From: Micromonospora sp. CCTCC AA 2012012
Lineage (GTDB): Bacteria > Actinomycetota > Actinomycetes > Mycobacteriales > Micromonosporaceae
Assembly: GCF_040499845.1 (NCBI RefSeq)
Contig: NZ_CP159342.1
Span: forward strand, 1,426,001-1,490,000
Direction: 5' to 3'
DNA length: 64,000 nt
In this document: positions 26,857-59,725 of the stretch, piece by piece
Layout: every line of letters starts with the position of its first letter
Position numbering within the stretch: position 1 is the first letter of the stretch
Notes under the pieces: model-generated
What the model saw: the letters and a program-made list of their open reading frames with translations, nothing else
Told to the model about the DNA's origin: nothing
Databases searched by the model: none
Translations under genes and position numbers: made by a program

Positions 26857-27173
26857 CCGGCGGTCTCCTCTGCCTGGTTCCCCGTTGTCCACACTGGGTG
26901 GCTGTGCAGACAACTGTCGACCGACCAGGCAACTCCGGCCTATCACGGCGCTTTCCCCGTTGGTCGCCTGCCATTCACCGCCCGAACGGCAGCCGCCTCG
27001 GACCGGGTGCCGGCCGGGCTGCGACGCTCCACTTGACCATCCCGGAACGGGATTGCGCAACCTACGGACGGGTCGACAAGGTTGGTCGCGCGCGGCTGGA
27101 CAACGGGCACCCCGATGAAGTGAAGTTGTTTTCAGAAACGCCATTCCTGAATAGCTGTCGGCCCTGGAGACTC
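26857..27173. other. 317-bp divergent intergenic region before the SARP gene
   Basis: This gene-free stretch separates the NTF2-like gene from the SARP gene. It holds one promoter of the cluster type (box at 26913, -10-like hexamer at 26941), giving a leader of about 220 bases. An open frame running into the SARP gene from 26898 has no SARP-like sequence. The AT-richer part just before the gene (around 27120-27160) may hold a second promoter. Confidence 0.6.
26913..26946 (+). promoter_or_regulatory. Cluster-type promoter of the SARP gene
   Basis: Box ACTGTCGAC, 19 bases, then TATCAC. The box agrees at six of nine positions with the ACTGCCGCT box of the other four cluster promoters, and the spacing is identical. 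A second CAACTCCGG lies within the spacer. It would allow the SARP to act on its own gene. Confidence 0.5.
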
Positions 27174-30100
27174 ATGCCCGACTTGACCCTCGCCCGCCCG
27201 GTCGCACCGCCCGGAATCGTCTTCCGGGTCCTGGGCCCCCTGCAGGTGGAAGGGGCCACCGGGACGGTTCGGATCCCGCCGGGACGCCAGGAGATCATTC
27301 TCGCCTGCCTGCTGATGGAGGCGGGACGGGTGGTCGGCACCGACCGGCTGCTCGACCTGATCTGGCACGAGGAACCACCGGACACCGCCCGTACCCAGAT
27401 CCAGATCTGCGTGTCCCGGTTGCGCAAGAGCTTCGTCGCGGCGGGCGTCGCCGCGTCCGTGGTGTCCCGTGCTCCCGGCTACCTGCTGCGTACCGACGAC
27501 GACGCGGTCGACCTGCACGTGTTCAACCGGCAGGTGATGGCCTCCCGGGTGCTGGTCAAGGAGGGCCGGGTCGCCGAGGCGGCGGAGACCCTGCGGGCCG
27601 CCGTGGCGCTGTGGCGGGGGCCGTGCCTCAGCGGCATCCCCAGCGAGGCGCTGCGTACCCGGGGGGTGCGGCTGGACGAGGACCGGCTGACCGCCGTCGA
27701 GACCTATCTGGAGCTGGAGCTGAGCCTCGGGCGCAGCCACGAGCTGGTCGGCGAGATCAGCCGGCTGGTGCACGAGCATCCGCTGCGGGAGCGGCTGCGC
27801 GGGCAGCTGATGCTGGCCCTGCACCGCTCCGGCCGGCAGGCCGAGGCGCTGGACGTCTACCGGGCGGGCCGGCAGCTGCTCGCCGACGAGCTGGGTCTGG
27901 AGCCGGGGGAGGAGCTGCGCCAGCTGGAGGCCGCCATCCTCGCCGGGGATCCGGCGCTGCACGCCGCCGGCCCGGCGCCGCACCGACCGGAGGCCGCCCG
28001 CCCGGCGCCGGCCGTCGCGCCGGCACCGGCGTACGGCGAGGAGAAGCCGCACCAGCTCCCGGCCGACACGGCGGACTTCGTCGCCAGCGAGCCGGTGCTG
28101 CGGACGGTGGAGGCCGCGCTGCTCGGCGGCGACGGGCAGCGGGCGCTCGGTCTGGTGGTGATCGCCGGCAAGCCCGGCATCGGCAAGAGCGCGATGGCCA
28201 CCCACGTCGCGCACCGGCTGGGCGGCAGCCGCTTCCCCGACGGTCAGCTCTACTGCGACCTGCGGGGCGCCGGCACCGAGCCGGTCAGCGCGCGGGACGC
28301 CCTCGGCCGGTTCCTGCGGGCGCTCGGCATCCCCGGCCCGGTGATCCCCGACGGCACCGACGAACGCGCCGAGATGTACCGGACCCTGCTGGCCTCGCGC
28401 CGGATGCTGGTGGTCCTCGACGACGCGGCGAACGAGCGCCAGATCAGCCCGCTGCTGCCGGGCAGCAGCAGCTGCGCCGTCGTGGTCACCAGCCGCTCCC
28501 GGCTGACCGCGCTGCCCGGCGCGCAGCGGGTCGAGCTGGACGTGCTGGACCAGGCGCAGGCCTTGGAGCTGCTGGGCCGGGTGATCGGCGTGGAGCGGGT
28601 CGCCCGGGAACCGGAGGCGGCGGGCGCGCTGGTGCGTACGGTGGGGGGACTGCCGCTGGCGCTGCGGATCGTGGCCGCCCGGCTGGCCGCCCGCCCGCAC
28701 TGGACGCTGGCGTCGATGGTGCACCGGCTGGCCAACGAGCGGCACCGCCTCGACGAGCTGGCGCACGGCGAGATGACGATGCGGGCCAGCCTCTCGCTCA
28801 CCCACGACGGGCTCAACCGCGCCGACCGGCGGCTGCTGCGCCTGTTCAGCCTGGCGGAGGGGCCGACGGTGCCGGGCTGGATCGCCGGCGCGCTGCTCGA
28901 CGACCACCGCCCGTTCCCGTCCGACCTGGTCGAGCCGCTGGTCGACGTGCAGATGCTGGACGCGGTGGCGGTGGAGCGCACCGGCGAGTTCCGCTACCGG
29001 TTCCACGAGGTGATCCGGCTGTTCGCCCGCGAGCAGCTCACCCTGCACGACAGCCCCGCCGTCCAGCTCGCCGCGACCGAGCGGATGGTCGGCGGCTGGC
29101 TGGCGATCGCCGAGCAGGCCCACGCCCGGATCTACGGCGGCGACTACACCGTGCTGCGCGGCGACGGACCGCGCTGGCAGCCGCCGGCCTCCTACGTGGA
29201 GAGCCTGCTGGCCGAGCCGATGGAGTGGCTGGACAGCGAACATCCCAGCCTCTGCCTCGCCGTCGAGCAGGCCGCCCAGGCCGGGCTGCACGAACTCTGC
29301 TGGGACCTGGCCACCACGCTGGTGACCCTCTTCGAGGCGCGCGGCTATTTCGACCACTGGGAGCGGACCCACCGGCGGGCGCTGGAGGCGACCCGCGCGG
29401 CCGACAACCGCCGCGGCACCGCGGCCGTGCTCAGCTCGCTGGGCACCATGCACCTGAGCCGGCAGCAGCCGGAGGAGGCGCGGCGGGCGCTCGGCGCGGC
29501 GCTGGAGATCTTCGACGACCTGGGCGACCCGCACGGGCTGGCCCTGTGCCGCCGCGACCTCGCCCTGCTCGACCGGCAGATCGGCGAGGACGACCGGGCC
29601 CTGCTCCTCTACGAGCAGGCCGCGCGGGACTTCGAACGGGTCGACGACGTGGTCGGCCGGGCGACCGTGCTGACCCAGAGCGCGTACATCTGGATGCGGC
29701 GGGGGCACACCGCCGTCGCGCACGACCAGCTCGAGGAGGCGCTGACCATCTTTCGCTCGGTGGGGTACGCCCACGGCGAGGCGCACGCCCTCCGCCGGGC
29801 CGGTCAGGTGCTGCTGCGACGCGGCGAGCACGTCCAGGCGGAACGGACGTTGACCGGCGTGCTGGAGATGGTGCGCCGGGGTCGCGACATCATCGGCGAG
29901 GGGCACCTGCTGCGCAACCTCGGTGAGGTGCACGAGGCCAGCGGACGTTACGAGCAGGCCCGGGACGCCTTCGCGCAGGCCCTCTCGGTGCGGGAACAGA
30001 TCATGGACCACGGCGGCGCGGCGGTGGTCCGTCTGGACCTGGCCCGGGTGCTGTCCCGCTGCGGTGAGACCACCGCCGCCGGCGCGCTGCTGGAGCAGGC

Positions 30101-30197
30101 GGCGGCGAGCTTCCGGTCCCGGGGGATGCGGCACGAACTGCGGGAGGCGGAGCGGCTGTCGGAGGAGCTGGCCACCCGACGTCCGTCCGCCTCCTGA
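27174..30197 (+). CDS. AfsR-like SARP transcriptional regulator (wHTH-BTAD-NB-ARC-TPR)
   Basis: The 1007-residue regulator has an OmpR-type winged helix (residues about 12-95, with LGPLQVEG and TQIQICVSRLRKSF), a bacterial transcriptional activation domain (about 105-250) and an NB-ARC ATPase. Walker A is AGKPGIGKSAM near 330 and Walker B is MLVVLDDA near 409. A TPR-rich C-terminal third follows. Large SARPs of this layout activate antibiotic clusters by binding direct repeats over the -35 region. The ATG at 27174 follows GGAG; the 92-codon open extension upstream is not family-like. It is the first cluster gene on the + strand and the most likely activator of the shared promoter box found in front of the biosynthetic operons. 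Confidence 0.93.
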   Translation: MPDLTLARPVAPPGIVFRVLGPLQVEGATGTVRIPPGRQEIILACLLMEAGRVVGTDRLLDLIWHEEPPDTARTQIQICVSRLRKSFVAAGVAASVVSRAPGYLLRTDDDAVDLHVFNRQVMASRVLVKEGRVAEAAETLRAAVALWRGPCLSGIPSEALRTRGVRLDEDRLTAVETYLELELSLGRSHELVGEISRLVHEHPLRERLRGQLMLALHRSGRQAEALDVYRAGRQLLADELGLEPGEELRQLEAAILAGDPALHAAGPAPHRPEAARPAPAVAPAPAYGEEKPHQLPADTADFVASEPVLRTVEAALLGGDGQRALGLVVIAGKPGIGKSAMATHVAHRLGGSRFPDGQLYCDLRGAGTEPVSARDALGRFLRALGIPGPVIPDGTDERAEMYRTLLASRRMLVVLDDAANERQISPLLPGSSSCAVVVTSRSRLTALPGAQRVELDVLDQAQALELLGRVIGVERVAREPEAAGALVRTVGGLPLALRIVAARLAARPHWTLASMVHRLANERHRLDELAHGEMTMRASLSLTHDGLNRADRRLLRLFSLAEGPTVPGWIAGALLDDHRPFPSDLVEPLVDVQMLDAVAVERTGEFRYRFHEVIRLFAREQLTLHDSPAVQLAATERMVGGWLAIAEQAHARIYGGDYTVLRGDGPRWQPPASYVESLLAEPMEWLDSEHPSLCLAVEQAAQAGLHELCWDLATTLVTLFEARGYFDHWERTHRRALEATRAADNRRGTAAVLSSLGTMHLSRQQPEEARRALGAALEIFDDLGDPHGLALCRRDLALLDRQIGEDDRALLLYEQAARDFERVDDVVGRATVLTQSAYIWMRRGHTAVAHDQLEEALTIFRSVGYAHGEAHALRRAGQVLLRRGEHVQAERTLTGVLEMVRRGRDIIGEGHLLRNLGEVHEASGRYEQARDAFAQALSVREQIMDHGGAAVVRLDLARVLSRCGETTAAGALLEQAAASFRSRGMRHELREAERLSEELATRRPSAS

Positions 30198-30209
30198 CCC
30201 GCTGCGGGG

Positions 30210-30386
30210 TCAGTCCCAGGGGTTGTTGCTGCTCGGGCTGGGGGTCGGGGTCGGGCTGATGGTCACCGTGACCGACGCGTCCGGGGCCGGGGCGTCCGCG
30301 GCCTGCGCCGCCGTGGCGCCGAGGGCGACCAGACCGGCGGTGGCGGCGGCGAGAGCGAACATCTTGACAGCGGTGCTGCGGCCCAT
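30210..30386 (-). CDS. Small secreted peptide of unknown function
   Basis: This 58-residue product has a clear Sec signal (MGRSTAVKMFALAAATAGLV, cleavage near AAQAAD). The mature peptide of about 28 residues is acidic, then rich in Thr, Pro and Ser, and ends SSNNPWD. The ATG is preceded by AAGGAG at good spacing. It lies convergent with the SARP gene, 12 bp from its stop, and divergent from the XRE regulator gene. There is no Cys and no RiPP-like core, so it may be an extracellular or wall peptide. I do not recognise a family. Confidence 0.7.
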   Translation of the reverse strand: MGRSTAVKMFALAAATAGLVALGATAAQAADAPAPDASVTVTISPTPTPSPSSNNPWD

Positions 30387-30731
30387 TGTCGACTCCTTGT
30401 CGGCGTTTCCCTGCGGTGTTGGGCTGAACGCTAACGACGGGCGGAATCTCGGCCTTATCCCAGCATGTATCTCGGCGCTATCACCATTGTCGACGGCCGG
30501 TGATAGCGCGGCCGTGCGGCGCCGCCGGAGATTTAGCGACGCACCGCCGGAGGGCGGGAGAACTGTTCTGAACTGCGGTTATCCGATGCTTGGCCGGGTG
30601 ATGCCCGGCCGATAGCGGAGTCCGGACGATAGCGGTGACGAGGAAATCCCGGCGACGGGATCGACGGCGGACACGAGCCGCCCGCGCTGAATTTCCCCGC
30701 GCCGTGACACCGGAGAAGTGGAGACCGCAAC
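30387..30731. other. 345-bp divergent regulatory region before the XRE-type regulator
   Basis: No gene is visible here. The region contains a perfect 11-bp inverted repeat (30475-30485 and 30499-30509) and further GATAGCGG copies at 30611 and 30628, 17 bp apart. It separates the small secreted peptide gene from the NB-ARC regulator gene and probably carries both promoters. The cluster-type ACTGCCGCT box with 19-base spacing is not found. Confidence 0.6.
30475..30509. promoter_or_regulatory. Long inverted repeat, candidate operator
   Basis: GCGCTATCACC and GGTGATAGCGC form a perfect 11-bp inverted repeat with a 13-bp spacer (24 bp between equivalent positions, near two helical turns). The half-site core GATAGCG recurs at 30611 and 30628. 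It is likely bound by a dimeric regulator controlling the divergent genes. Confidence 0.55.
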
Positions 30732-32051
30732 ATGAGCATCGACGTACGGAGCGGCGAGGACGTGCCGCGGTTCGGCCTACTGGTCCGCCAGCACCGGACC
30801 CGCATCGGATTGACCCAGCGGGAACTGGCGGACTTCTCCACGGTCAGCGTCCGGGCGATCCGGGACCTGGAGCAGGGGCGGGCGCGCCGGCCGCGGCAGG
30901 ACACCGTACGACTGATCGCCGACGGCCTGCGGCTCGGGCTGCGGGCCCGCGCGGACCTGGAGTCCGCGGCCAACGAGGGCCGGACCAGCTGGGCGGTGAA
31001 GGCCGGCTACGAGGCCGACCCGCCGGCCCCGCCCTTCGCCACCGACGTGCAGCTCGGCCGGGAGGCCGAGACCGGCGTCATCCTCGACGAGCTGACCGGC
31101 GGCGCGGAACGGCTGCTGACCATCGTCGGCATCGACGGCGTCGGTCGGACCCGGCTCGCCCTAGAGGTCGCCACCCGGCTGCACACCGCCGAGCGGACCC
31201 CGGTGCTCTGGTGCCCGGTGACCACCGTCGGCCCGCGCCCCGGCGGCGACCGGCTCGCCGCCCTGGTCCGCGCCGCCGTCGACCAGCTCCTCGACAGCGG
31301 CGACGGCGGGACGGACGACGTCGCCGCGTTCGTGGAGACCGTCGCCGACCGTCCGCCGCTGCTGGTGCTGGACGGGGTGACCGGGACCGGCGTACGTGGG
31401 GACCGCCTCGCCGAGCTGCTGCGCGACTGCCCCGGCCTGCGGATCCTGGTCACCGCCGCGCAGCCGCTGCGGGTGCCGGGGGAGCGGACCTTCCTGCTCA
31501 CCCCGCTGGCCGTCCCGGAGGCGGGTGAACCGGTCGACCCGCAGTCGCCGGCCGTGCGGCTCTTCGTCGAGCGGGCCCGCCGGGCCCGCCCCGACTTCCA
31601 TCTCACCGCGGCCGACGCCGGCCTCGTCGGCGACATCTGCCGCCGGCTCGACGGGGTGCCGCAGGCGCTGCACGCGGCGGCGTCCTGGCTCGTCGTGTAC
31701 GACATCCCGACGCTGCACCGGTGCCTGCACGACGACCCGGCGGGGCTGCTGCACCACCTCGCCGGCGCCGAGGGCGGCGGCGGCCTGCGGGAGGCGCTGG
31801 CGCGCCGGCTGGCCGACCTGCCCACCGCCGCGCGGGACCTGCTGGCCGCGCTCTGCGTCCGGGGCGACGACTTCGGCCTGCCCGAGGTGATGACGCTGAC
31901 CGGCGGCAGCCTGCCCGACAGCGGCCGGGCCGTCCGCGACCTGGTGCTGCACGGTCTGGTCCGGCCCAGCTACGCGGCCGGGCAGTCCCGGTTCCGGATC
32001 CTGCACCTGGTCCGGGCCGCCCAGCTCTGCGCCCTGGCCGCCCGGGTCTGA
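30732..32051 (+). CDS. XRE-type helix-turn-helix regulator with NB-ARC-like ATPase domain
   Basis: The 439-residue protein starts with a Cro/C1-type helix-turn-helix (residues about 12-68: LVRQHRTRIGLTQRELADFS, VSVRAIRDLEQGRARRP). An AP-ATPase-like domain follows, with a Walker-A-like IVGIDGVGRTRLALE near residue 130 and Walker B-like LLVLDGV near 215. The invariant Walker A lysine is Arg here, so ATP hydrolysis may be weak or lost. The last third holds a winged-helix-like region but no TPR array. It lies between the SARP and the biosynthetic genes and is probably a second pathway regulator. The ATG follows GGAGA. Confidence 0.85.
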   Translation: MSIDVRSGEDVPRFGLLVRQHRTRIGLTQRELADFSTVSVRAIRDLEQGRARRPRQDTVRLIADGLRLGLRARADLESAANEGRTSWAVKAGYEADPPAPPFATDVQLGREAETGVILDELTGGAERLLTIVGIDGVGRTRLALEVATRLHTAERTPVLWCPVTTVGPRPGGDRLAALVRAAVDQLLDSGDGGTDDVAAFVETVADRPPLLVLDGVTGTGVRGDRLAELLRDCPGLRILVTAAQPLRVPGERTFLLTPLAVPEAGEPVDPQSPAVRLFVERARRARPDFHLTAADAGLVGDICRRLDGVPQALHAAASWLVVYDIPTLHRCLHDDPAGLLHHLAGAEGGGGLREALARRLADLPTAARDLLAALCVRGDDFGLPEVMTLTGGSLPDSGRAVRDLVLHGLVRPSYAAGQSRFRILHLVRAAQLCALAARV

Positions 32052-32052
32052 C

Positions 32053-32077
32053 CACCCCCGCAACTGCTGCGTGGGTG
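32053..32077 (+). terminator. Hairpin after the XRE regulator gene
   Basis: Ten-base arms (CACCCCCGCA and TGCGTGGGTG, one mismatch) with an ACTGC loop start 1 bp after the stop. They end eight bases before the first cluster promoter box. Confidence 0.5.
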
Positions 32078-32085
32078 CCGGAACA

Positions 32086-32119
32086 ACTGCCGCTCGGCGC
32101 GTACGGGCGCCGGTTGAAT
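32086..32119 (+). promoter_or_regulatory. Cluster-type promoter of the fabH-ACP-NRPS1 unit
   Basis: Box ACTGCCGCT, 19 bases, then TTGAAT, ending 77 bp before the ketosynthase start. CAACTGCTGCG at 32061 is a partial second copy of the box, 23 bp upstream. CGGCGC directly after the box is shared with the mutase-operon promoter. Confidence 0.65.
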
Positions 32120-32196
32120 GACTGCACACCGAGCAGGAAGCGGTCCGGCGGAGAGCCCGTCGGACCGCCGGACGACGGTACGAGGAGGGACGACCT

Positions 32197-33243
32197 TTGT
32201 CGGCGAATGTCGAGCACACGAGGAACACCAGGACGGCCGTCATCGCCGGCCTCGGCGCGTACGTGCCGGAGCAGGTGGTGAAGAACGACGAGATCGCCGC
32301 GCGGCTCGGCGTCACCACGGACTGGATCCGGGACCGGACCGGCATCGAGCAGCGGTTCGTCCTCGAACCCACGGGGGCCACCTCCGACCTGGCCGTGGAG
32401 GCCGGTCGGCGGGCCCTCGACTCCTGCGGGAACCCGGAGATCGATTTCCTGATCCTGGCGACCTGCACCCCGGACCACCCCTTCCCGGCCACCGCGCCGG
32501 CGGTCGCCGCCCGGCTGGGCCTGAAGGGCATCGCCGCCTTCGACCTCAACGCGGCCTGCTCCGGGTTCGTCTACGCGCTGTCGGTCAGCGCCGGCATGCT
32601 CGCCTCCGGGGCGTACCGCACCGGGCTGGTGATCGGCGCCGACGCGATCTCCACCATCCTCGACAACGACGACCAGATCACCGCGCCGATCTTCGGTGAC
32701 GGCGCCGGTGCCGTGGTCGTCCGGGCCGGCGGCACCGACGAGCCGGGCAGTGTCACCGCGCACGTCCTAGGCAGCGACGGCGACCTGCTGGACATCATGA
32801 AGACGCCGGCCGGCGGCTCCCGGCAGCGCTCCGCCGGCGTCGGCACCGACGTCGCGCAGAGCTACTTCACGATGGCCGGCCGATCCGTCTACAAGCACGC
32901 CATCAACCGGATGACGCTGGCCTCGACGTCGGTGCTGGAGCGGATGGGCTGGGGCGTCGACGACGTCGACTGGCTCGTCGCCCATCAGGCCAACCGGCGC
33001 ATCCTCACCGCCACCGCCGAGGCGATCGGCATCCCGGCCGAGAAGGCGGTGATCAACGTGGACAAGGTGGCCAACACCTCCGCCGCGTCCATCCCGCTGG
33101 CCTTCGTCGACGCGGTGGAGTCCGGCGCGTTCACCGCCGGCGACAAGGTGCTCCTGGCCGCGTTCGGCGGGGGCGCCACCTGGGCCGCCGCGGCCCTGAC
33201 CTGGCCCGACCTGACGCTCGCGGCCCCGCACGTCACCCGCTGA
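32197..33243 (+). CDS. Beta-ketoacyl-ACP synthase III (FabH family)
   Basis: This 348-residue thiolase-fold enzyme joins an acyl-CoA to malonyl-ACP to start a fatty-acyl chain. The triad is intact: Cys in DLNAACSGFVYAL near residue 123, His in WLVAHQANRRI near 263 and Asn in KVANTSAASIPLAF near 293. The start is TTG, eight bases after a GGAGGG site; no ATG or GTG fits the frame here. It is followed by an ACP and an NRPS with a starter-type C domain, so it probably makes or extends the acyl group that caps the peptide. Other fatty-acid enzymes would come from primary metabolism. No acyl-AMP ligase is present in the window. Confidence 0.93.
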   Translation: MSANVEHTRNTRTAVIAGLGAYVPEQVVKNDEIAARLGVTTDWIRDRTGIEQRFVLEPTGATSDLAVEAGRRALDSCGNPEIDFLILATCTPDHPFPATAPAVAARLGLKGIAAFDLNAACSGFVYALSVSAGMLASGAYRTGLVIGADAISTILDNDDQITAPIFGDGAGAVVVRAGGTDEPGSVTAHVLGSDGDLLDIMKTPAGGSRQRSAGVGTDVAQSYFTMAGRSVYKHAINRMTLASTSVLERMGWGVDDVDWLVAHQANRRILTATAEAIGIPAEKAVINVDKVANTSAASIPLAFVDAVESGAFTAGDKVLLAAFGGGATWAAAALTWPDLTLAAPHVTR

Positions 33244-33316
33244 CCGTTCCACCCGCCGCGACCGCACCACCGCACCACCGATCACACAGGCGAGGCACTC
33301 ACCCGAGGGCCCGACG

Positions 33317-33562
33317 ATGGGAGACACCGTGCTGAACACCCTGGAGAAGGTCAACGAGATCGTCCTGGAACAGGTGCCGGACCTGGAGGTCCGCATCGGC
33401 CCGGCACACCGGCTCAGCCAGGACCTGGGCATCGACTCGCTCACCTTCGTCGACATCCTGGTGAAGGTCGAGAAGAGCTTCGACATCGAGATCACCGACG
33501 ACGAGCTGGCCGCCGTCCAGAGCGTCCAGGACATCCTGGACCTCATCGAGCGGAAGCAGTGA
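33317..33562 (+). CDS. Acyl carrier protein
   Basis: The 81-residue acidic protein has the phosphopantetheine site in LGIDSLTFVDILVKVEK (Ser near residue 41) and the usual four-helix ACP pattern. It lies 73 bp after the ketosynthase and 139 bp before NRPS1. It is probably a dedicated carrier that holds the acyl chain made with the ketosynthase and offers it to the first C domain of NRPS1. It could also serve general fatty-acid synthesis, but its place in the operon argues for the pathway. Confidence 0.93.
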   Translation: MGDTVLNTLEKVNEIVLEQVPDLEVRIGPAHRLSQDLGIDSLTFVDILVKVEKSFDIEITDDELAAVQSVQDILDLIERKQ

Positions 33563-33608
33563 CCCGTACCCCGGTCCGTCCCACCGCCGTCCGTCATCAC
33601 GTCGTCGG

Positions 33609-33646
33609 CCCACCGCGCACACGTACCTGAAGGGTGCCGCGGTGGG
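33609..33646 (+). other. Inverted repeat between the ACP and NRPS1 genes
   Basis: Nine-base arms (CCCACCGCG and CGCGGTGGG) with a 20-base loop, 47 bp after the ACP stop. It may be an mRNA structure that changes the ratio of ACP to NRPS1; it is not a clear terminator. Confidence 0.35.
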
Positions 33647-33701
33647 TCGGTGACGCCTGTCCCACCGCTCCGCCTTCCGTGTGCACAGATGGGGGTCCAC
33701 C

Positions 33702-39700: not shown

Positions 39701-40055
39701 GCGCGCCCTGCCCGAGCCGGAGTTCACCCCCACCGCCGGCACCGGCCGGCCCGCCCGCGACGCCCGCGACGAAATCCTCTGCGGCCTCTACGCGGAAATA
39801 CTCGGGGTGCCGACGGTGAGCATCGACGACAATTTCTTCGACCTCGGCGGGCATTCGCTGCTCGCCGCCCGGCTGGCCGCCCGGGCCCGCGCCGTCCTCG
39901 GCGTGGAACTGAGCATCCGGGACATCTTCCAGGCCCCCAGCATCGCCGTCCTCACCGAGCGGCTGCCCGCCGCCAAGCCGGCCCGTACCCGGCCGGTGCT
40001 GCGGCGACGCACCGAGGCGGGGGCGCCACTGCCCACCGGACAGCCCGGCCCGTGA
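33702..40055 (+). CDS. Nonribosomal peptide synthetase NRPS1, C-A-T-C-A-T
   Basis: The 2117-residue enzyme has two complete modules. The first C domain (residues 8-430, HHLIHDG near 139) resembles starter types that accept an acyl group (LNAAQLGVWYAQRIDPGNP), fitting the FabH and ACP encoded upstream. A1 (about 443-955) and A2 (about 1500-2010) are almost the same sequence and give one ten-residue code by my alignment, D-A-L-Q-F-G-G-G-F-K, which I cannot match to an amino acid. T1 has its Ser in [10 protein letters not shown] near 998 and T2 near 2051. The second C domain (1056-1480) has HHIATDG. There is no epimerase or TE domain, so the dipeptide passes on. The ATG at 33702 follows a GGGGG site; a GTG seven codons earlier is less likely. 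Confidence 0.95.
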   Translation: MSDPSTDTRPLNAAQLGVWYAQRIDPGNPVHNMGGYLEILGPLDGGALIATVRALVAEDETLRLRFTEVDGVPVQYVGPAPDFAPRVRDLSGEADPLGVALACMRDDMETAPDLEHDRLFHHEIFRLGPEHHLWYNRAHHLIHDGYTSTVVRRRGAELYTALVAGRPAAGAPLGSFTAMLDEQARYAGSRAQQRDGAYWRKLMADVTYPPPPVAAGKAANRVTRQVSRLDAAGLAGLRRFAERAGVTWQQALIAAAVLHRQVWTGDSDVLLSLPVPGRLDPRSVGAPGMMANVLPLRCRIDPAESVEDLAGRVARQTLRAQWHQRYDSADLRRDLDWPTDGRREFGPVVNLVAGDEHDDFAGLPARHHLISTGGTVEDLALTVTHHPDGGLRIDVSVDTAHRDAVDLDAYQRTLHQVLAAMTGRPGRPVGELDLLDPTERHRVLHDWNATAVEVPDESLAGLFAARVAVDPEAVALVCDGVAVSYGELGARANRLAAHLRSLGVRRGDMVGVLLERGIDFAVALLATVKVGAGYSVLDPEFPDERLGWVLTETGAAVVVTRAALAARLDAAGRHVVRVDTDAAAVAALPDADPGVRVDPGDVACVMFTSGSTGVPKGVVSSHRALVGSVAGQSYAQFGPGEVFLQCSPVSWDAFSLEFWGALLFGGTCVLQPGQRPEPALIAALVAEHGVTMLQLSSGLFNLLVDEYPEAFDGVRVAFTGGEPASGPHVARILTRCPDLRVANGYGPAESMGFTTTYDVPADIGGVSVPVGRAVANKRAYLLDARMRPVPVGVVGEVYLAGVGLAHGYLNRPGLTAQRFVADPFGGPGERLYRTGDLARWTSDGVLDFVGRVDGQVKVRGFRVEPGEIETVLLGHPQVAQAAVIAAPDPTGTLRLIAYLVPDTTGTVDGGQVRGWLRERLPEHMVPTAVLVLDRMPLTANGKLDRRALPAPDFGTTTATGGGRAPRDAREEILAGLYAEVLGVSTVSVDDNFFDLGGHSLLAARLAARARAVLGVELTIRDIFQAPTIAALTDHLADTGRARPRPAVTAGPRGERIPLSYAQRRLWLIDSLQGQGSSYHVPLAVRLTGDLDVDALGRALTDLVDRHEVLRTVIAAVDGEPYQRILDPAPVAVARRRATPDTLDRLLAEAATEGFDLAAAPPLRVTLFDLADDDHVLLILLHHIATDGQSLRPLFADLTTAYAARRAGHAPDWPPLPVQYADYARWQRDMLGDPADPTSVHATELDHWRTALAGLPEEIALPRDRPRPAEADHSGGAVAVRIDPELTRRIRELAREQRCTPFMVLQAALALTLTRYGAGTDVPLGTPVAGRSDPALDDLVGFFVNTVVLRTDTSGNPSFAELLARVRAADLDALAHQELPFDLLLEALNPVRSLARHPLFQVCLALDSAADAELRLPGLRCGRGGVVDTGTAKFDLEFLLRDEGDAGIGGALLYRAALFDPATVQRLVAALLRVLGQVLADPARPVDAVEVLDPAERAAVLHDWNATAVDVPDESLAGLFAARVAADPDAVALVSDGVAVSYGELDGRANRLAVHLRSLGVRRGNMVGVLLERGVDFAVALLATVKLGAGYSVLDPEFPDERLAWVLTETRASALVTRAPLASRVAATCPVVRVDTDAAAIAALPATDPGVHVDPGDVACVMFTSGSTGVPKGVVSSHRALVGSVAGQSYAQFGPGEVFLQCSPVSWDAFSLEFWGALLFGGTCVLQPGQRPEPGLITELVRAHRVSMLQLSSGLFNLLVDEYPEAFDGVRVAFTGGEAASAAHVARILTRCPQLRVANGYGPAESMGFTTTHDVPADISGASVPVGRAVANKRAYLLDDRLRPVPVGVVGEVYLAGVGLAHGYLNRPGLTAQRFVADPFGGPGERLYRTGDLARWTSDGVLDFVGRVDGQVKVRGFRVEPGEIETVLLGHPQVAQAAVVAAPDPTGTLRLIAYLVPDADVTVDGGQVRGWLRERLPEHMVPTAVLVLDRMPLTANGKLDRRALPEPEFTPTAGTGRPARDARDEILCGLYAEILGVPTVSIDDNFFDLGGHSLLAARLAARARAVLGVELSIRDIFQAPSIAVLTERLPAAKPARTRPVLRRRTEAGAPLPTGQPGP
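35053..36790 (+). repeat. Duplicated A-T segment, copy 1
   Basis: This A-T region of NRPS1 is nearly the same as that starting at 38224. The segment from about 35510 to 35640 is almost base-identical to 38665-38800. The match covers the A domain and the T domain but not the C domains. Confidence 0.8.
38224..39950 (+). repeat. Duplicated A-T segment, copy 2
   Basis: This is the second copy of the NRPS1 A-T segment. Differences cluster around the less conserved stretch at 38520-38640, while the substrate-pocket positions are identical to copy 1. That suggests recent duplication or gene conversion. Confidence 0.8.
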
Positions 40056-40056
40056 G

Positions 40057-40075
40057 GCGGGGAAACCTGCCCCGC
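40057..40075 (+). terminator. Short hairpin after NRPS1
   Basis: GCGGGG and CCCCGC arms lie directly after the NRPS1 stop, three bases before the next cluster promoter box. The similar hairpin after NRPS3 has the same distance to its box. Confidence 0.5.
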
Positions 40076-40077
40076 GT

Positions 40078-40111
40078 ACTGCCGCTCCGGCCGGAAAACC
40101 GTCGATAGCCT
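40078..40111 (+). promoter_or_regulatory. Cluster-type promoter of the thioesterase-dioxygenase-A-T unit
   Basis: Box ACTGCCGCT, 19 bases, then TAGCCT. A transcript from here would start near 40118, which supports the thioesterase start at 40214 (or 40202) rather than the ATG at 40115. Confidence 0.65.
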
Positions 40112-40213
40112 CCAATGAACGGGGTGTCAGATCCGTGGCCGGGTCGGCCGTCGGCTCCCCTTTCCCCCTTTTTTCTGATCCGACCTGACGCGCGTCGAAG
40201 AATGGAGCGCACC

Positions 40214-41023: not shown

Positions 41024-41050
41024 CCCACCCGACCCTCCAGGAGGACCCTG

Positions 41051-42085: not shown

Positions 42086-42092
42086 GCCGGCC

Positions 42093-43898: not shown

Positions 43899-43912
43899 CC
43901 TGCCCGTACCGC

Positions 43913-43949: not shown

Positions 43950-44021
43950 ACCCGCACCCCGATTTCGTGGATTCCACGGCGCCGACCGACGGTCAGTCGT
44001 GGTCGAGCAGGAGGAGTTTCC

Positions 44022-47000: not shown

Positions 47001-48818
47001 ACCGTCGGCGATGTCGACCTCTTCACCCCCGCCGAGCAGCGGCGGAACACCGGCGGGCATCCGCAGGCCCCGGCGGCCGGGATCGCCGACCTCGTCGCCG
47101 CCCACGCCGCCACCACCCCGACCGCCGTCGCCGTGGTCGCCGGGCAGCGGCGGATGACGTACGCCGAACTGGACGCCGACGCGAACCGCCTGGCCCGGCA
47201 GCTGGCCGCGGCCGGCGTGCGCCGGGGCGACGTGGTGGGGGTGCTGCTGCCGCCCGGCCCGGCACTGCCGGTGGCCGCGCTCGCCGCGCTGCGGGCCGGC
47301 GCCGCGTACCTGCCGCTCGACCCGGCGCTGCCGGACGGGCCGCTGGCGGCCCGGGCCGCCACCGTCACCCTCGCCGCCCTGCTCACCGAGACCGCGCACT
47401 CCGGCCGGCTGGTCGGGCTGCCCCGCACCGTGCTGGTCGACGCCGACGGCTGGCGTGACCGGCCCGCCGACCCGCCGGCCGTACCGGGCCACCCCGGCGA
47501 CGCGGCGGTGGTGCTGGTGGACGACACCGGGCGTACGCCCCGGGCGGTGCTGCACCCGCACCGGGCGCTCGTCGACGCCGTGGCCCGGCTGGGCACCGCC
47601 GCCGACCAGGTGTGGCTGCCGTGGGCGCCGCCGTCGACCGGCGACTTCGTGGCGCCGTTCTGGGCCGCGCTGACCACCGGGGCCCGCTGCGTGCTGCCGG
47701 ACCGACTCCCACCGACCCCCGACGCGCTGGCCGCCCTCGTCGCCAGGCACGGCGTCACCGCCGTCGCGCTGCCCGCCGCGCTCCTCGCGCTCCTCGCCGA
47801 CGAGCACCCCACCGTCCTGACCGGACTGCGTCACCTGGTCACCGGCGGCGAGCCGCCGTCCGTCGCGCACCTGGCCGAGCTGCGCCGCCGGCATCCCGGG
47901 CTGCGGCTGGTGCACGCGTACGGGGGCGCGGAGGCGGGGCCGTGGGCGCTCAGCCACCCGGTCGACGCCCCGCCCACCGGGCCGGCCGTGCCGGTCGCCG
48001 GGGACGGCCACCGCTGCCACGTCCTCGACGAGCGGCTGCGGCCGGTGCCCACCGGCGTCCCCGGCGAGCTGTACCTGTGCGGCCCCGGCCTGGCCGAGGG
48101 CTGGCCGAACCGGCCCGGCGCCACCGCCGCCCGGTTCGTCGCCGACCCGTGCGACCCGACCGGCGGGCGGATGCTGCGCACCGGAGAGCGGGCGAGCTGG
48201 GCCGCCGACGGCACGCTGCGGCTGCACGGGCCCGTCGACCGGCCGACCCTCGGGGGCGTACCCGTGGAACCGGAGCGGGTGGCGGCGACGCTCACCGCGC
48301 ACCCGGCGGTCCGGCGGGCCGCGGTGGTCGTGCGGGACGGCACCCAGCTGGTCGGGTACGTGGTTCCGGCACCCGGCGCGGCGCCCGCCGTCGCCGAGCT
48401 GCGTCGGCACGCCGCGCGGACCCTGCCGGAGCACCTGGTGCCGGCGGAGCTGGTGGTGCTGGCGACGCTGCCGCTCACCCCGGACGGCCGGCTCGACCGC
48501 GCCGCCCTGCCCGCCCCGGCGGACCCGACCGCCACCACCCGCGACCCGCGCGAGGCGCGACTGCGCGAACTCTTCGCCGAGGTGCTCGACGGGCGGCCGG
48601 TCGACGTGCACGACAACTTCTTCCGGATCGGCGGGCACTCGCTGCTCGCCGTGCGGCTGGTGAACCGGATCCGCGCCGCGCTGTCGGTGGAGGTCACCAT
48701 CCGGGACGTGTTCCAGGCCCCGTCGGTGGCCGCGCTCGCCGAGCGCCTCGCCGCCGCCACGAGCGCCGCGCCGGCCCGACCCACCCTGCGCCGCCGCGCC
48801 GGCGCCGGCACCCGGTAA
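44022..48818 (+). CDS. Nonribosomal peptide synthetase NRPS3, C-T-C-A*-T with degenerate A domain
   Basis: The 1598-residue enzyme starts with a C domain (HHVATDG near 127) followed directly by a T domain (Ser near 506, [12 protein letters not shown]), with no A domain between. A second C domain (562-1000, HHIAGDG near 687), an A-like domain (about 1020-1500) and a T domain (Ser near 1539) follow. The A-like domain has lost its motifs: A3 reads LVDDTGRTPRAV instead of TSGSTGxPKG, A5 is AYGGAEA, A7 LRTGERASW, A8 lacks the QVKIRG block, and the A10 lysine is Arg (TPDGRLDR). It is very likely inactive, so both T domains must be charged in trans. The GTG at 44022 follows a GAGGAG site. Confidence 0.94.
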   Translation: MIPLSYAQRRLWFLNRLEGPSSTYNAPVVLALAGVPDLAALGGALADVVARHEVLRTVFPSVDGEPVQHVLPGTAVEVSVRDCVPDQVDELVAEFTAGTFDIAVQPPLRARLLVTGPDRSVLVLLLHHVATDGASTGPLLRDLSEAYAARRAGAAPQWEPLPVQYADYTLWQRELLGEESDPESVLSTQLAWWREALADLPPVLDLPLDRPRAVEATRRGGTVTGWLDAGTHRRLADLGRTRRASMFMTLQAGLAATLTRLGAGTDVPIGAPVAGRPDEALHDLVGFFVNTVVLRTDVSGDPAFADLVERVRDADLAAYAHEEVPFDLVVERLNPDRSLGHHPFFQVMLTVDTAPPAGLRLGDLAATVRPATLDSAKFDLTVFCTEVRDDDGAPAGVEVWFQYATDLFDEATARLLLEVYLRLLRAVAADPATPIDALDVLTAAEHSGLAERRARLVAAPTVDAAAPTGDGPLSAREEILAGLFAAALGTDRIGRHDNFFRSGGHSLLATKLVNRVRAVLGVEVGLRDFFVDPTVAGLDRRIGELTGLGVRPPLTPARRPDLVPLSYAQRRLWFLTEMDGSHRIYNIPVVLRLDRPLDPAALTAAARDVTDRHEVLRTVYAAVDGEPFQVVLDEATPTVTVRDVPAAELSRAVDAATGHVFDLAGEIPFRVWLLRVDDGSQVLVVLVHHIAGDGWSTGPLLRDLGTAYQARLAGTAPDWAPLPVQYADYTLWQRESLGEPDDPASPLGRQLAHWRTTLDGAPEVLELPVDRPRPAVASHRGDLVPFALDARTHEAVLRVARDTGATVFMVLQAALAALLSRLGAGTDIPIGTVIAGRGDEALDDLVGFFVNTLVLRTDVSGDPTFAELVTRVRDADLAAYDHQDLPFERLVEELNPTRSTAHHPLIQVTLVLQNTGGAQPTRNALAGVDVPFDTGTAKFDLTLAVREEHDGTTPRGIRGVLEYATDLFDPASADLIADRLGRLLRAVTADPDTTVGDVDLFTPAEQRRNTGGHPQAPAAGIADLVAAHAATTPTAVAVVAGQRRMTYAELDADANRLARQLAAAGVRRGDVVGVLLPPGPALPVAALAALRAGAAYLPLDPALPDGPLAARAATVTLAALLTETAHSGRLVGLPRTVLVDADGWRDRPADPPAVPGHPGDAAVVLVDDTGRTPRAVLHPHRALVDAVARLGTAADQVWLPWAPPSTGDFVAPFWAALTTGARCVLPDRLPPTPDALAALVARHGVTAVALPAALLALLADEHPTVLTGLRHLVTGGEPPSVAHLAELRRRHPGLRLVHAYGGAEAGPWALSHPVDAPPTGPAVPVAGDGHRCHVLDERLRPVPTGVPGELYLCGPGLAEGWPNRPGATAARFVADPCDPTGGRMLRTGERASWAADGTLRLHGPVDRPTLGGVPVEPERVAATLTAHPAVRRAAVVVRDGTQLVGYVVPAPGAAPAVAELRRHAARTLPEHLVPAELVVLATLPLTPDGRLDRAALPAPADPTATTRDPREARLRELFAEVLDGRPVDVHDNFFRIGGHSLLAVRLVNRIRAALSVEVTIRDVFQAPSVAALAERLAAATSAAPARPTLRRRAGAGTR

Positions 48819-48825
48819 CACCGCC

Positions 48826-48850
48826 GCGAGGCGGGACCATCCTGCCTCGC
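48826..48850 (+). terminator. Hairpin after NRPS3
   Basis: GCGAGGC and GCCTCGC arms, extended by three more pairs, start seven bases after the NRPS3 stop and end three bases before a cluster promoter box. This is the same layout as after NRPS1. Confidence 0.5.
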
Positions 48851-48852
48851 CG

Positions 48853-48886
48853 ACTGCCGCTGCCCCGGCGGCGCGCTGACTAACCT
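48853..48886 (+). promoter_or_regulatory. Cluster-type promoter of NRPS4-mbtH
   Basis: Box ACTGCCGCT, 19 bases, then TAACCT. The -10-like hexamer falls in the loop of a long dyad (48860-48910). The NRPS4 ATG is 139 bp further, after an AGGAGGAAG site. Confidence 0.65.
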
Positions 48887-48910
48887 GAGGTCAGCGCGTC
48901 GCCGGGGCAG
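48860..48910. promoter_or_regulatory. 21-bp inverted repeat overlapping the NRPS4 promoter
   Basis: Arms at 48860-48880 and 48890-48910 are complementary at 20 of 21 positions, with a 9-base loop TAACCTGAG. The left arm overlaps the end of the promoter box and the loop holds the -10-like hexamer. It may be a repressor operator or an mRNA/DNA structure that limits NRPS4 expression. Confidence 0.6.
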
Positions 48911-49024
48911 TTGTCATCCGGCGACCACCCCGCCACCGCCCGCCGACGGCCCGGCGCCCCGGCACCAGCACCGTCCACAAGGGACGGTTTTGGTACCCAC
49001 CCGAACCCCGCAGGAGGAAGTTCG

Positions 49025-55000: not shown

Positions 55001-58000
55001 GAGCTGCGCCGCGACGCCGCCGCCGCGCTCCCCGCGCACCTGGTGCCGGCCGCGTTCGTGGTGCTGGACCGGCTGCCGCTGACCGCCAACGGCAAGGTCG
55101 ACCGGGCCGCGCTGCCCGCCCCCGAGTACGGCCCGACCAGCGCGTACCGGGCCCCGCGCACCCCGGCCGAACAGCTGATGTGCGACCTGTTCGGCGCGGT
55201 GCTCGGCGTGCCGAAGGTCGGGGTGGACGACGACTTCTTCGCCCTCGGCGGGCACTCCCTGCTCGCCGCCAAGCTGGTCAACCGGATCCGCGCGGTCCAG
55301 GGGACCCAGGTCGGCGTCCGGGACCTGTTCCAGGCGCCCACCCCGGCCGGGCTGACCCGCCGGGTCGGCGAGCTGGGCGGCGGCACCGTCCGGCCCGCGC
55401 TGACGCCGACCGCGCCGACCGGCCGGGTGCCGCTGTCGTACGCCCAGCACCGGCTCTGGTTCCTCGGCGAGCTGGACGGGCCCGGCGCGGTCTACAACAT
55501 CCCGGTCGCGCTGCGGCTGGACCGGGACCTCGACCCGGACGTGCTGGCCGCCGCGCTGGCCGACGTCGCCGGCCGGCACGACGTGCTGCGCACCGTCTAC
55601 CGGGCGGTCGACGGCGAGCCGTACCAGGTGGTCCTCGCCGACGGTCGGCCGGAGCTGACGGTGCGCGACCTGCCCGCCGACGAGCTGACCCCGGCGATCG
55701 AGGCCGCCGCCGGGCACGTGTTCGACCTGGCCGCCGAGGTCCCGCTGCGGGCCTGGCTGCTGCGGCCGGCGGGCGAGCGTCAGGTGCTGGTGGTGCTGGT
55801 GCACCACATCGCCGGTGACGGCTGGTCGATGGGGCCGCTGCTGCGTGACCTGTCGACCGCGTACCGGGCGCGGGCGGCGGGCCGGGCACCGCAGTGGACG
55901 CCGCTGCCCGTCCAGTACGTCGACTACACCCTCTGGCAGCGCCGGCTGCTCGGCGACGCCGCCGACCCGACCAGCCTGCTCGCCCGGCAGCTCGACTTCT
56001 GGCGTACCGCCCTGGCCGGCGCGCCGCAGGTGCTGGAGCTGCCCGCCGACCGGCCCCGGCCGGCGGTGGCCAGCCATCGGGGCGACGTGGTGCCGTTCGG
56101 CCTCGACGCGGAGACCCACGCCGCCGTGCTGCGGCTCGCCCGCGGCAGCGGCGCGACCCTGTTCATGGTGCTCCAGGCCGCCTTCGCGGTGCTGCTGTCC
56201 CGGCTCGGCGCCGGCCCCGACATCCCGATCGGCACCGTGGTGGCGGGCCGGGGCGACGAGGCCCTCGACGACCTGGTCGGGTTCTTCGTCAACACCCTGG
56301 TGCTGCGCACCGACGTGTCGGGCGACCCCACCTTCGCCGACCTGGTGGCCCGGGTGCGGGACGCCGACCTGGCCGCGTACGACCACCAGGACCTGCCCTT
56401 CGAACGCCTGGTCGAGGAGCTGAACCCGGCCCGCTCCACCGCCCACCACCCGCTGTTCCAGGTGATGCTGCTGGTGCGCAACACCGCCGAGGTGGACCCG
56501 ACCGGCTCGCCGTTCGCCGGCACCGAGGTCCCCTTCGACCTCGGCACGGTCAAGTTCGACCTGACCCTCTCGGTCGGCGAACGGCAGGACGACGCGGGTG
56601 CCCCAACCGGCCTGGACGGGGTGCTGGAGTACGCCGCCGACCTGTTCGACCCGGGCACCGCCGCGCTGCTGGCCGACCGGCTGGCCCGGCTGCTCACCGC
56701 CGTCGCCACCGACCCGGACCAGCGGGTCGGCGACGTGGACCTGCTCGGCGCCGACGAGCGGCGGCGGTTGCTGGTCGACTACAACGACACGACCGTGCCG
56801 GCGACCCGGGGTGGGGTGCACGAGGCGTTCCAGGAGCAGGCCCGGCTCACCCCGGACGCGATCGCGGTCACCTTCGGCGACCGGCGACTGAGCTACGCCG
56901 AGCTGAACCGGCGGGCCAACGCGCTGGCCCGGCGACTCGTCGCGGCGGGCGTCAGGCCACAGTCGACGGTCGGGGTGCTGATGCGGCGCGGCGCCGACCT
57001 GATCGTGGCGAGCCTCGCGGTGCTCAAGTGCGGGGCCGCGTACGTCCCCGTCGGCACCACCCTGCCGCCCGCCCGGGTCCGGATGGTCATGGCGGACTCG
57101 GCGGCCACCGTCCTGCTCGTCGACGCCGACGCGGCGGCCCACCCGGCGCTGCCCGACGAGCGGGCGCACGGCACCCGGGTCGTACCCTTCGACGGGCCGG
57201 CCGGCGACCGCGACGACGACCTGGACCTGCCGCTGGACGACCGGTCCCTGATGTACGTCATGTTCACCTCCGGCTCCACCGGCCGGCCCAAGGGCGTCGG
57301 CGTCACCCACCGCAACGTGCGGGAACTCGTCGCCGACCGGTGCTGGAACGCCGAGCACCACCGCCGGATGCTGGTGCACTCGAACTACGGCTTCGACTCC
57401 TCCACCTATGAGATCTGGGTGCCGCTGCTCACCGGCGGGGAACTGGTGATCGCCGAGGGGGAGGGCGCCGACCTCGGCGAGCTGGCCCGGACCATCACCC
57501 GCCACGACGTGACCGCCGCCTACTTCACCATGGGCCTGTTCCACGTCATGGCCGACGAGGGCCTGGACACCCTGGCCCGGCTGAAGGAGGTGTGGACCGG
57601 CGGCGACGTCGCCTCCCCGGCGGCGGTACGCCGGGTGCTGGAGCACTGCCCCGACACGGTGCTGGTGCACAGCTACGGGCCCACCGAGGTCACCTTCGCC
57701 TCGCACCACCAACGGTTCGACACCGACCGCCGGGAGTTCACCGGCGTCCACCTGGGCCGGCCGCTGGACAACACGCGGACGTACGTGCTCGACGAGCGGC
57801 TGCACCCGGTGCCGCTGGGTGCCACCGGCGAGCTGTACCTGGCCGGCGACCAGGTCGCCCGCGGCTACCTGGGCCGGCCGGCGCTGACCGCCGAACGGTT
57901 CGTCGCCGACCCGTTCGACCCGGCCGGCGGCCGGATGTACCGCACCGGTGACCTGGTCGCCTGGACCGGCCGGGGTGAGCTGCGCTTCGTCGGCCGGGCC

Positions 58001-59347
58001 GACGGGCAGGTCAAGATCCGGGGCTTCCGGATCGAACCGGTCGAGGTGGAGGCGACCGTCGCCGCTCATCCCGGCGTCGGCCAGGTCGCCGTGGTCGTCC
58101 GCGAGGACCGGCCCGCGGACAAGCGCCTCGTGGCGTACGTGGTGCCGGCCGACGGCGCGACGGTGGACGAGGCGGCGCTGCGGGCGGACGCCGCCCGGAC
58201 CCTGCCCGGCTACATGGTGCCCTCGGCGGTGGTGCTGCTCGACCGGTTGCCGGTCACCGTCAACGGCAAGCTGGACCGTCGGGCCCTGCCCGCCCCCGCG
58301 CACGCCGGACCCGGCGGCCGGGCCCCGCGCACCCCGGACGAGCAGCGGATGTGCCAGCTCTTCGCCGACGTCCTCGGCGTCGACACGGTGGGCGTCGACG
58401 ACAACTTCTTCGACCTCGGCGGCCACTCCCTGCTGGCCACCCGCCTGGTCAGCCGGATCCGCACCACCTTCGGCCGGGACCTCGGGGTCCGCGACCTGTT
58501 CCAGCACCCGACCGTCGCCGGGCTGCTCGGCGAGCCCACCGGTGGCGACGCGCTGGGCGTGCTGCTGCCGCTGCACCCCGAGGGCACCCGCCGGCCGCTG
58601 TTCTGCGTCCACCCCGGCGCCGGGATGAGCTGGTCGTACGCGGGCCTCGCCGCGCACCTCGGCCCCGACCAGCCGCTCTACGGCCTGCAGACCCGCGCGT
58701 TGAGCACCCCCGGCTACCGGGCGACCGGCGTCGCGGAGCTGGCCGACGAATACCTGACCGAGATCCGGCGGGTGCAGCCGCACGGGCCGTACCGGCTGCT
58801 CGGCTGGTCCTTCGGCGGGGTGGTGGCGCACGCCATGGCCGTCGCCCTGCAACGGGCCGGGGAGCAGGTGGAGCTGCTGGCCATGATGGACGCCTACCCG
58901 GTGTCGGCGGAGGACGCCGCCCGGCCCCGCGACGACCGGGAGACCATGCGGATGCTGGTCGGCGACGACGACGGCGAGGCCGACGACCTGCCGCCCGGCT
59001 TCCTCGACCGGTACGACCCGCACGCCGTCGTCGAGGTGCTGCGCCGCCGGGACCCGGTGCTCGCCGGCTTCACCGCCGACGAGGTGCACGCATTGGTCCT
59101 GGCCGCGGTCAACCACGCCGAGATCATGGCGGCGTACCGGCCGGAGGTCTTCGCCGGTGACCTGCTCTTCTTCTCCGCCGGTCGGGCCGACTCCGCCGGC
59201 GTCACCTCGCCGAAACTGTGGGAGGAGCACATCGCCGGCGCGGTGGAATGCCACGACATCGACACCACTCATCTGCGGATGACCGAAAGGGAACCCCTCG
59301 CGGAAATCGGCGGCATCCTCGCCGGAAAGCTCGCCGACACCGCGTGA
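49025..59347 (+). CDS. Nonribosomal peptide synthetase NRPS4, A-C-T-C-A-T-C-A-T-TE
   Basis: This 3440-residue enzyme opens with an A domain (residues about 30-500; A3 near 164, GKIDR near 485) joined directly to a C domain (518-960) and T (Ser near 1019). Two full C-A-T modules and a thioesterase (about 3185-3440, Ser in [13 protein letters not shown] near 3261, His in DTTHLRM) follow. Ten-residue codes as I read them: first A D-A-E-D-V-G-T-V-V-K (Glu at the third position suggests a basic side chain such as Lys); second A D-A-L-W-V-G-G-I-F-K (close to Val codes); third A D-S-Y-Y-W-G-S-F-A-K (unassigned). All C domains keep HHxxxDG; no epimerase or methyltransferase domain is seen. TE releases or cyclises the peptide. 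Confidence 0.95.
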
Positions 59348-59383
59348 GAAACACGTCCGGAAACATCGAGAGAGGAAACTGAC

Positions 59384-59590
59384 ATGGCGAATCCGTTCGA
59401 CGACGCCGACGGCACCTTCCTGGTCCTGACCAACGACGAGGGACAGCACTCCCTGTGGCCCGTCTTCGCGGCGGTGCCGGGTGGCTGGCAGACCGCCTTC
59501 GGGCCCGCCGGCCGGCAGGAGTGCCTCGACCACATCGAGGGCGCCTGGACCGACATCCGCCCGAGGAGCCTGGTCGCCCAGTACGCGTGA
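59384..59590 (+). CDS. MbtH-family NRPS accessory protein
   Basis: The 68-residue protein has the conserved family residues: [33 protein letters not shown] and [17 protein letters not shown] (Ser and the three Trp of the family). MbtH proteins bind A domains and are needed for their folding or activity. It follows NRPS4 by 36 bp and closes that transcription unit before a strong terminator. It may serve every A domain of the cluster, including the stand-alone A-T protein. Confidence 0.96.
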
Positions 59591-59601
59591 GCCCAGCTCA
59601 G

Positions 59602-59633
59602 GACGGCCCCCCGCGACACCGCGGGGGGCCGTC
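59602..59633 (+). terminator. Strong terminator after the mbtH-like gene
   Basis: A perfect 14-bp stem (GACGGCCCCCCGCG and its complement) with an ACAC loop lies 11 bp after the stop. It separates the NRPS4 unit from the mutase operon. Confidence 0.85.
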
Positions 59634-59691
59634 GTCGTGTGTGGACAGGGTCGCCCGGCGGCTTTCGACTGCCCGCCTTCCTGCCTCTGCA

Positions 59692-59725
59692 ACTACCGTT
59701 CGGCGCCTCCGACCGCCCCTAGATT
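59692..59725 (+). promoter_or_regulatory. Cluster-type promoter of the mutase operon
   Basis: Box ACTACCGTT (seven of nine positions shared with ACTGCCGCT), 19 bases, then TAGATT. The 16 bases from AACTACCG to CGGCGC differ from the 32086 site at only two positions. The mutase ATG lies 80 bp downstream. Confidence 0.65.

Follow-up and report, generated by a model that had tools for sequence, protein, structure and literature searches.

The 64-kb window analysed here, bases 1426001-1490000 of one 6.73-Mb contig of Micromonospora sp. CCTCC AA 2012012, carries a gene cluster of the peptide-antibiotic type with nonribosomal peptide synthetases (NRPSs). This cluster is probably controlled by a cascade of two activators, an AfsR-like SARP and an XRE-type protein with a NOD-like domain (XRE-NOD), each of which would use a promoter code of its own. 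On the first level, the SARP (gene at 27174) would bind 11-bp direct repeats of the GATA type just 5' of the -10 regions of two genes, the XRE-NOD gene and a gene for a small peptide ending in NPWD, and probably also upstream of its own gene. On the second level, XRE-NOD would bind the bipartite element [C/G]TGCC-N7-CTRCCG, here called the CTGCC element, which four biosynthetic promoters carry between about -51 and -35, and would recruit RNA polymerase to these promoters, which are devoid of the usual -35 region. A preliminary description of this DNA had reported five promoters of one geometry, a box, exactly 19 nucleotides (nt) and a -10-like hexamer, and had named the SARP as the best candidate for their activator. 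All five boxes, gaps and hexamers are indeed present in the sequence (boxes at 26913, 32086, 40078, 48853 and 59692). In naming the SARP, that description probably missed the direct activator by one step of the cascade.

At the four biosynthetic promoters the box is one half of a 12-bp direct repeat. The second half-site lies exactly 12 bp upstream of the box in all four cases, it had been missed before, and its TGCC is conserved as strongly as the box itself in an alignment of nine clusters. All four promoters are located on the plus strand and have 19 nt between box and hexamer. The promoter of the FabH1 operon (32064..32119) has the half-sites CTGCT at 32064, GTGCC, the variant form, at 32075 and CTGCC at 32087, and the -10 region TTGAAT at 32114-32119. 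The promoter of the thioesterase II (TEII) operon (40067..40111) contains CTGCC at 40067 and 40079, followed by TAGCCT, and that of NRPS3, which was called NRPS4 previously, contains CTGCC at 48842 and 48854, followed by TAACCT (48842..48886). In the promoter of the glutamate mutase (GlmS) operon (59669..59725), CTGCC at 59669 and 59681 and CTACC at 59693 precede TAGATT. A third half-site is therefore present at two sites, CTGCC 24 bp upstream of the box at 59692 and CTGCT 23 bp upstream of that at 32086. The distances from the box to the start codon are 76 nt for TEII, 111 nt for FabH1 (if TTG at 32197 is the start), 114 nt for GlmS, and 261 nt for the SARP. Assuming that transcription starts 7 nt past the hexamer, the repeat would span about -51 to -35 with its centre near -43, a position where activators like lambda cI or CRP at class II promoters commonly touch region 4 of the sigma factor. 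A TTGACA-like -35 region is not conserved across the aligned promoters of the nine clusters. By eye, possible terminator hairpins are discernible after the NRPS stop codons at 40055-40075 and 48818-48850, and they overlap the upstream half-sites.

The nine clusters with aligned upstream regions are those of the window and of the Micromonospora genomes G123, G064, G120, G013, G156, G087, G139, and G040. A further candidate, G050 (TauD 55%), was rejected as an orthologous cluster and excluded from the site tables. The element is present with exactly 19 nt between 9-mer and hexamer at 32 of the 34 promoter positions with available sequence, and each of the 32 hexamers starts and ends with T. The FabH1 promoter is kept in 9/9 clusters, the TEII promoter in 7/9, and the NRPS3 and GlmS promoters in 8/8 each; the G087 contig stops short of both latter genes, and these positions were not counted. 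The two misses are the TEII positions in G139 and G040, which have no promoter gap there. In the same two genomes the glutamate mutase genes are out of their usual place, and their promoter remains, now in front of the gene for an asparagine synthetase A-like protein (AsnA).

Three further copies of the exact 9-mer ACTGCCGCT are found in the window, at 2883(+), 28649(+), and 2291(-), and thus the 9-mer is nonspecific when taken alone. Its combination with a spacer of 17-21 nt and TANNNT, a whole-genome scan proposed in the preliminary description, has two matches in 6.73 Mb, at 40078 and 48853, both inside the cluster and both with a 19-nt spacer; the reversed control has none. The sites at 32086 and 59692 deviate from this exact string and are therefore outside the count. 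A scan for box plus hexamer with three mismatches allowed was uninformative (1096+1129 matches versus a higher 2399+2452 in the control), and instead a weight matrix for repeat plus hexamer was built from the 32 orthologous sites. The background consisted of 1.238 Mb of the same genome (an 18% sample of 59 evenly spaced and 3 chosen stretches, 2,466,576 positions on both strands). The four sites score 29.2-32.2 bits, compared to a background maximum of 14.0 bits. Taken without the hexamer, the repeat stands out less, with a background maximum of 18.7 bits. When each promoter in turn was left out of the matrix, TEII, NRPS3, and GlmS still scored 23.0, 22.6, and 19.5 bits, with no background match for any of them. 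The score of FabH1 was 13.0 bits, with 8 background matches and rank 6 in a 124-kb region, and therefore the support for this promoter depends on its orthologues. Shifting the hexamer by -6 to +6 lowered the scores of all four sites, a result that is partly circular because the same matrix was used.

An independent test of the spacing was offered by 47 further loci, mostly from Streptomyces, which had no part in building the matrix (L009-L055; L006-L008 were excluded because they duplicate the contigs of G120, G087, and G040). In 36 of them a plus-strand match exceeds the background maximum, and where the gene starts were viewed (for example in L028, L042, L046, and L050), these matches lie just 5' of NRPS1 or of a later NRPS gene. 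The 47 loci contain 50 candidate repeats of at least 14 bits; for 29 of these the best hexamer stands at exactly 19 nt, while no other spacing accounts for more than six. Eleven loci are without a match above background, nine of which are shorter than 10 kb. The longer two are L054 and L024, and in L054 a site is present in which the repeat gap is 13 bp and the spacer to the hexamer is the usual 19 nt. The fixed promoter geometry is real for the four operons, and it is the signature of a regulon that is conserved across genera. That the boxes are chance occurrences or a shared non-regulatory sequence, such as terminator hairpins at gene ends, is extremely improbable. This explanation could draw on the possible hairpins past the stop codons that cover the upstream half-sites at 40078 and 48853, and on the 22 background positions at which the repeat without hexamer reaches at least 14 bits. 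However, it leaves unexplained the conservation at fixed spacing of 32 out of 34 positions, including 32086 and 59692, and the recurrence of the element in other genera.

The fifth promoter, that of the SARP gene itself, is not a member of the CTGCC regulon. The site at 26913 scores 9.7 bits, a value equalled or exceeded at 65 background positions. Its ACTSTCG is kept in seven of the nine clusters and absent in G139 and G040 (AATCTCCAC), and it may serve the divergent SnoaL-like gene. The hexamer TATCAC, formerly regarded as the -10 region of the SARP promoter, is kept in 9/9 clusters within CTATCAC-N4-CTTTC, and it fits better as one half of a second, GATA-type element than as a -10 region. 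In the window this element is the direct repeat CTATCAC-N4-CTTTCCC (26940..26957, minus strand), which has the reverse orientation. The upstream regions of six distant SARP genes, inspected by eye, contain CTATC-N6-CTATC in five cases and a TTATC variant in the sixth. Hence the previously proposed regulon with activator-type promoters could be retained for four operons, and the SARP's own promoter had to be removed from it.

The second element is composed of 11-bp repeats of NNGATA, and it is found in SARP geometry 5' of the two genes next to the SARP gene. Classical SARP sites, according to PMC10936776, are repeats 11 or 22 bp apart, the 3' repeat of which is 8 bp away from the -10 region. 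The XRE-NOD promoter (30600..30630, plus strand) conforms to this pattern, with GATG-N7-GATAGC as an 11-bp repeat, 8 nt, and the weak -10-like hexamer GACGAT, which was assigned by eye. GATG-N7-GATA (AATA in one case) precedes the XRE gene in 28 of 33 distinct clusters (35 rows including two duplicates), and a weak -10-like hexamer follows after 8-9 nt as judged by eye. The pattern has no match at the XRE gene in the other five clusters, namely G120, G519, G246, G529, and G085. The promoter of the peptide gene (30428..30484, minus strand) contains four NNGATA/GATT repeats (GTGATAG, GAGATAC, GGGATAA, GAGATTC) with spacings of 11, 12, and 11 bp, and 9 nt separate GATTCC from the -10 region TAGCGT. 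GATTCC or GAATCC, nine nt and a hexamer were found at the peptide gene in 19 of 19 listed sequences (18 with TANNNT, one with CACTGT), and the background sample is free of the full pattern of two GATA, GATTCC, 9 nt, and TANNNT. The CTGCC element, in contrast, departs from the classical SARP site in both properties: the repeat spacing is 12 bp at all four sites, with a third copy at 23 or 24 bp at two of them, and the distance to the -10 region is 19 nt instead of 8 nt at all 32 sites.

The SARP (27174..30197, plus strand, 1007 aa) is a large SARP with a winged helix, BTAD, NB-ARC, and tetratricopeptide repeats (TPRs) in this order. Its best solved structural relatives are AfsR chains, and it scores 581 bits with the AfsR equivalog model NCBIfam NF053617, below the cut-off of 1430 bits. 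XRE-NOD (30732..32051, plus strand, 439 aa) belongs to the XRE family, as PF01381 and PF13560 both match above cut-off. A structural model (pLDDT 77, pTM 0.46) predicts an N-terminal lambda-repressor-like helix-turn-helix (HTH) with helices in residues 13-82, and its best Foldseek matches are Apaf-1, CED-4, and plant NLRs (best E value 3.5e-10, TM-scores only 0.2-0.3). The STAND/NOD fold is indicated by this fold match; a Pfam match to NB-ARC is missing, and the P-loop lysine is replaced by arginine. The model points to an HTH followed by a NOD/STAND-type domain, and thus XRE-NOD may be a trigger-dependent switch. The recognition helix SVRAIRDLE is nearly constant in the XRE proteins compared, even at 35-40% overall identity, which is consistent with a constant DNA motif.

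The SARP and XRE genes are adjacent in 16 of the 17 genomes that were viewed for both, and the 17th, G170, is frameshift-ridden. G170/L051 (CP042279.1) had been considered as a cluster without XRE gene and was rejected, because its reading frames are broken in the assembly, so that missing genes carry no meaning there, and its best SARP match is a fragment. In G139 and G040 both genes have been relocated together to the opposite end of the cluster, while the CTGCC boxes stayed. Co-occurrence alone cannot separate the two regulators in the main cluster family, and therefore distant XRE homologues were sought. They were found (E <= 1e-50) in 9 of 394 genomes of the class, including that of the window, and a plasmid search added two more, in related XRE-bearing clusters on linear Streptomyces plasmids (L206, L207; 1.6 Mb and 155 kb). 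G529 encodes an XRE protein of 39% identity and has no SARP match on its contig (E <= 1e-20), L206 one of 36-38% identity and no SARP within 20 kb. Both have CTGCC elements with a 19-nt spacer, in G529 one of 23.4 bits and another of 15.6 bits on the opposite strand, in L206 one of 25.3 bits, and in both the GATA repeat is absent at the XRE gene. Further CTGCC matches of about 14 bits lie just 3' of the XRE gene in both; L206 also has a minus-strand match of 16.1 bits inside the region of NRPS matches, and thus scores near 14-16 bits are unsafe on their own. These relatives without a nearby SARP keep the CTGCC element and lack the GATA repeat. On the whole we favour, with moderate confidence, XRE-NOD as the reader of the CTGCC element and the SARP as the reader of the GATA element.

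Several points weigh against this assignment, which is built on sequence comparison. G529 and L206 share one cluster type and represent approximately one event, and an unrelated SARP on another contig of G529 (best identity 41%) could act in trans. G085 (XRE 35%) has a single half-site, 19 nt from TAACGT, and its nearest SARP matches, 34-39% identical, lie at a distance of about 25 kb or more. L207 (SARP 34%, XRE 35%) is without a CTGCC element of at least 12 bits. XRE-type HTH proteins usually bind inverted and not direct repeats. On the side of the GATA element, G120 has GGTG in place of GATG at the XRE gene, G519 and G246 contain SARP and XRE genes without GATG-N7-GATA, the -10 region of the XRE gene is weak (GANNAT type), and GATG-N7-GATAG was found once in the background.

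The earlier view that the SARP directly binds the CTGCC element at an atypical distance, with XRE-NOD having another role, is an unlikely but serious alternative. The SARP accompanies the CTGCC element in the main cluster family, tandem repeats are in the style of SARPs, the operator of PimR does not overlap the -35 region (PMC5930380), and ACTGCCG has TGCCG in common with the complement of the PimR heptamer CGGCAAG. It is opposed by the 12-bp repeat and the 19 nt where 11 bp and 8 nt would be expected, by the existence of another element, which does have the geometry of SARP sites, at the XRE and peptide genes, by the retention of the CTGCC element in G529 and L206, which have no SARP nearby, and by its absence from the SARP's own promoter. 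A direct action of the SARP on the four operons is thus not well supported. It is still far less probable that the promoters belong to an alternative sigma factor, with the box as their -35 element. The location of the box near -40 to -32 and its fixed distance to the -10 region would fit, but the additional copies, one 12 bp upstream at every site and another 23-24 bp upstream at two of them, would not, the -10 sequences are ordinary (TAnnnT-like), and no sigma factor domain was detected among the Pfam-scanned cluster genes, a scan that did not include some small open reading frames (ORFs).

The peptide gene (30210..30386, minus strand) is situated between the SARP and XRE genes, has its own SARP-type promoter, and encodes a small secreted peptide of 58 aa with the C-terminus NNPWD. 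The corresponding peptides of other clusters share with it a signal-peptide-like N-terminus, a variable linker rich in Pro and Thr, and the C-terminus PWD, mostly as NNPWD or TNPWD; the G422 peptide has two SNPWD units. Such genes are present in 9/9 Micromonospora clusters and in 16 others (12 loci plus G175, G174, G551, and G422). The gene has diverged in G519, G379, and G246, no match to the pattern was obtained in G168 and G163, and it was not found in G529, G085, L206, and L207. Its occurrence follows that of the SARP and not that of the XRE gene, with the exception of L207. It can be speculated that the peptide, once processed, acts as a pheromone: it would be taken up and recognised by the TPR domain of the SARP. 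The result would be an autoinducing switch similar to RRNPP systems, in which the peptide gene itself carries a SARP box, and this switch would fire XRE-NOD and then the NRPS cluster. This is conceivable, although we regard it as rather doubtful. If true, actinomycetes would possess a quorum-sensing mechanism of the RRNPP kind that has SARP and STAND proteins as its building blocks. A literature search yielded no paper on NNPWD and, in titles and the beginnings of abstracts, nothing on point about peptide signalling with SARPs. We know of no TPR ligand of a large SARP.

From 27174 onwards the cluster encodes the SARP, the small gene on the minus strand, XRE-NOD, FabH, an acyl carrier protein, NRPS1, TEII, a TauD-type oxygenase, an A-PCP protein, NRPS2, NRPS3 with a thioesterase, MbtH, both parts of glutamate mutase, AsnA, and an FMN enzyme, and it extends beyond the window end (64000). 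With regard to the product, a literature search listed three papers on macrolactams, as judged from titles and the beginnings of abstracts. An additional CTGCC-type match of 17.6 bits, above background, lies just past the window at window coordinate 71340 (L003:11340), within the end of a coding sequence that specifies a phosphopantetheinyl transferase domain and 81 nt before the next ORF.

With the two elements, the promoter codes become readable in a family of NRPS clusters that occurs in Micromonospora and Streptomyces. They nominate the XRE gene, or the SARP domain, as candidates for overexpression in order to wake up such clusters, and they offer a candidate peptide signal that may feed into a large SARP. 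In RRNPP signalling of Bacillota the gene for a short exported peptide lies beside that for a regulator containing TPRs. The neighbourhood of an exported short peptide and a TPR-bearing regulator in the window is reminiscent of this arrangement. However, the host phylum and the receptor architecture differ: an RRNPP receptor unites HTH and peptide-binding TPRs in one XRE protein, whereas XRE-NOD has no TPR match and the TPRs are found in the SARP. The small gene also differs from afsS, since its product is a secreted peptide ending in NPWD and not an AfsS-like protein. Otherwise the upper level is similar to the AfsR-afsS pair of Streptomyces coelicolor, in which, according to PMC10936776, a large SARP with NB-ARC and TPRs acts on a target gene with 11-bp repeats directly 5' of the -10 region. 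The closest parallel to the whole cascade is PimR-PimM, for which PMC5930380 describes that a SARP-LAL protein with a repeat operator activates the gene of a second regulator, a PAS-LuxR activator, which in turn activates the polyene structural genes. In contrast to that system, the SARP described here is AfsR-like with TPRs instead of a LAL part, and the second level would be occupied by an XRE-NOD protein that has a 12-bp direct repeat of its own.

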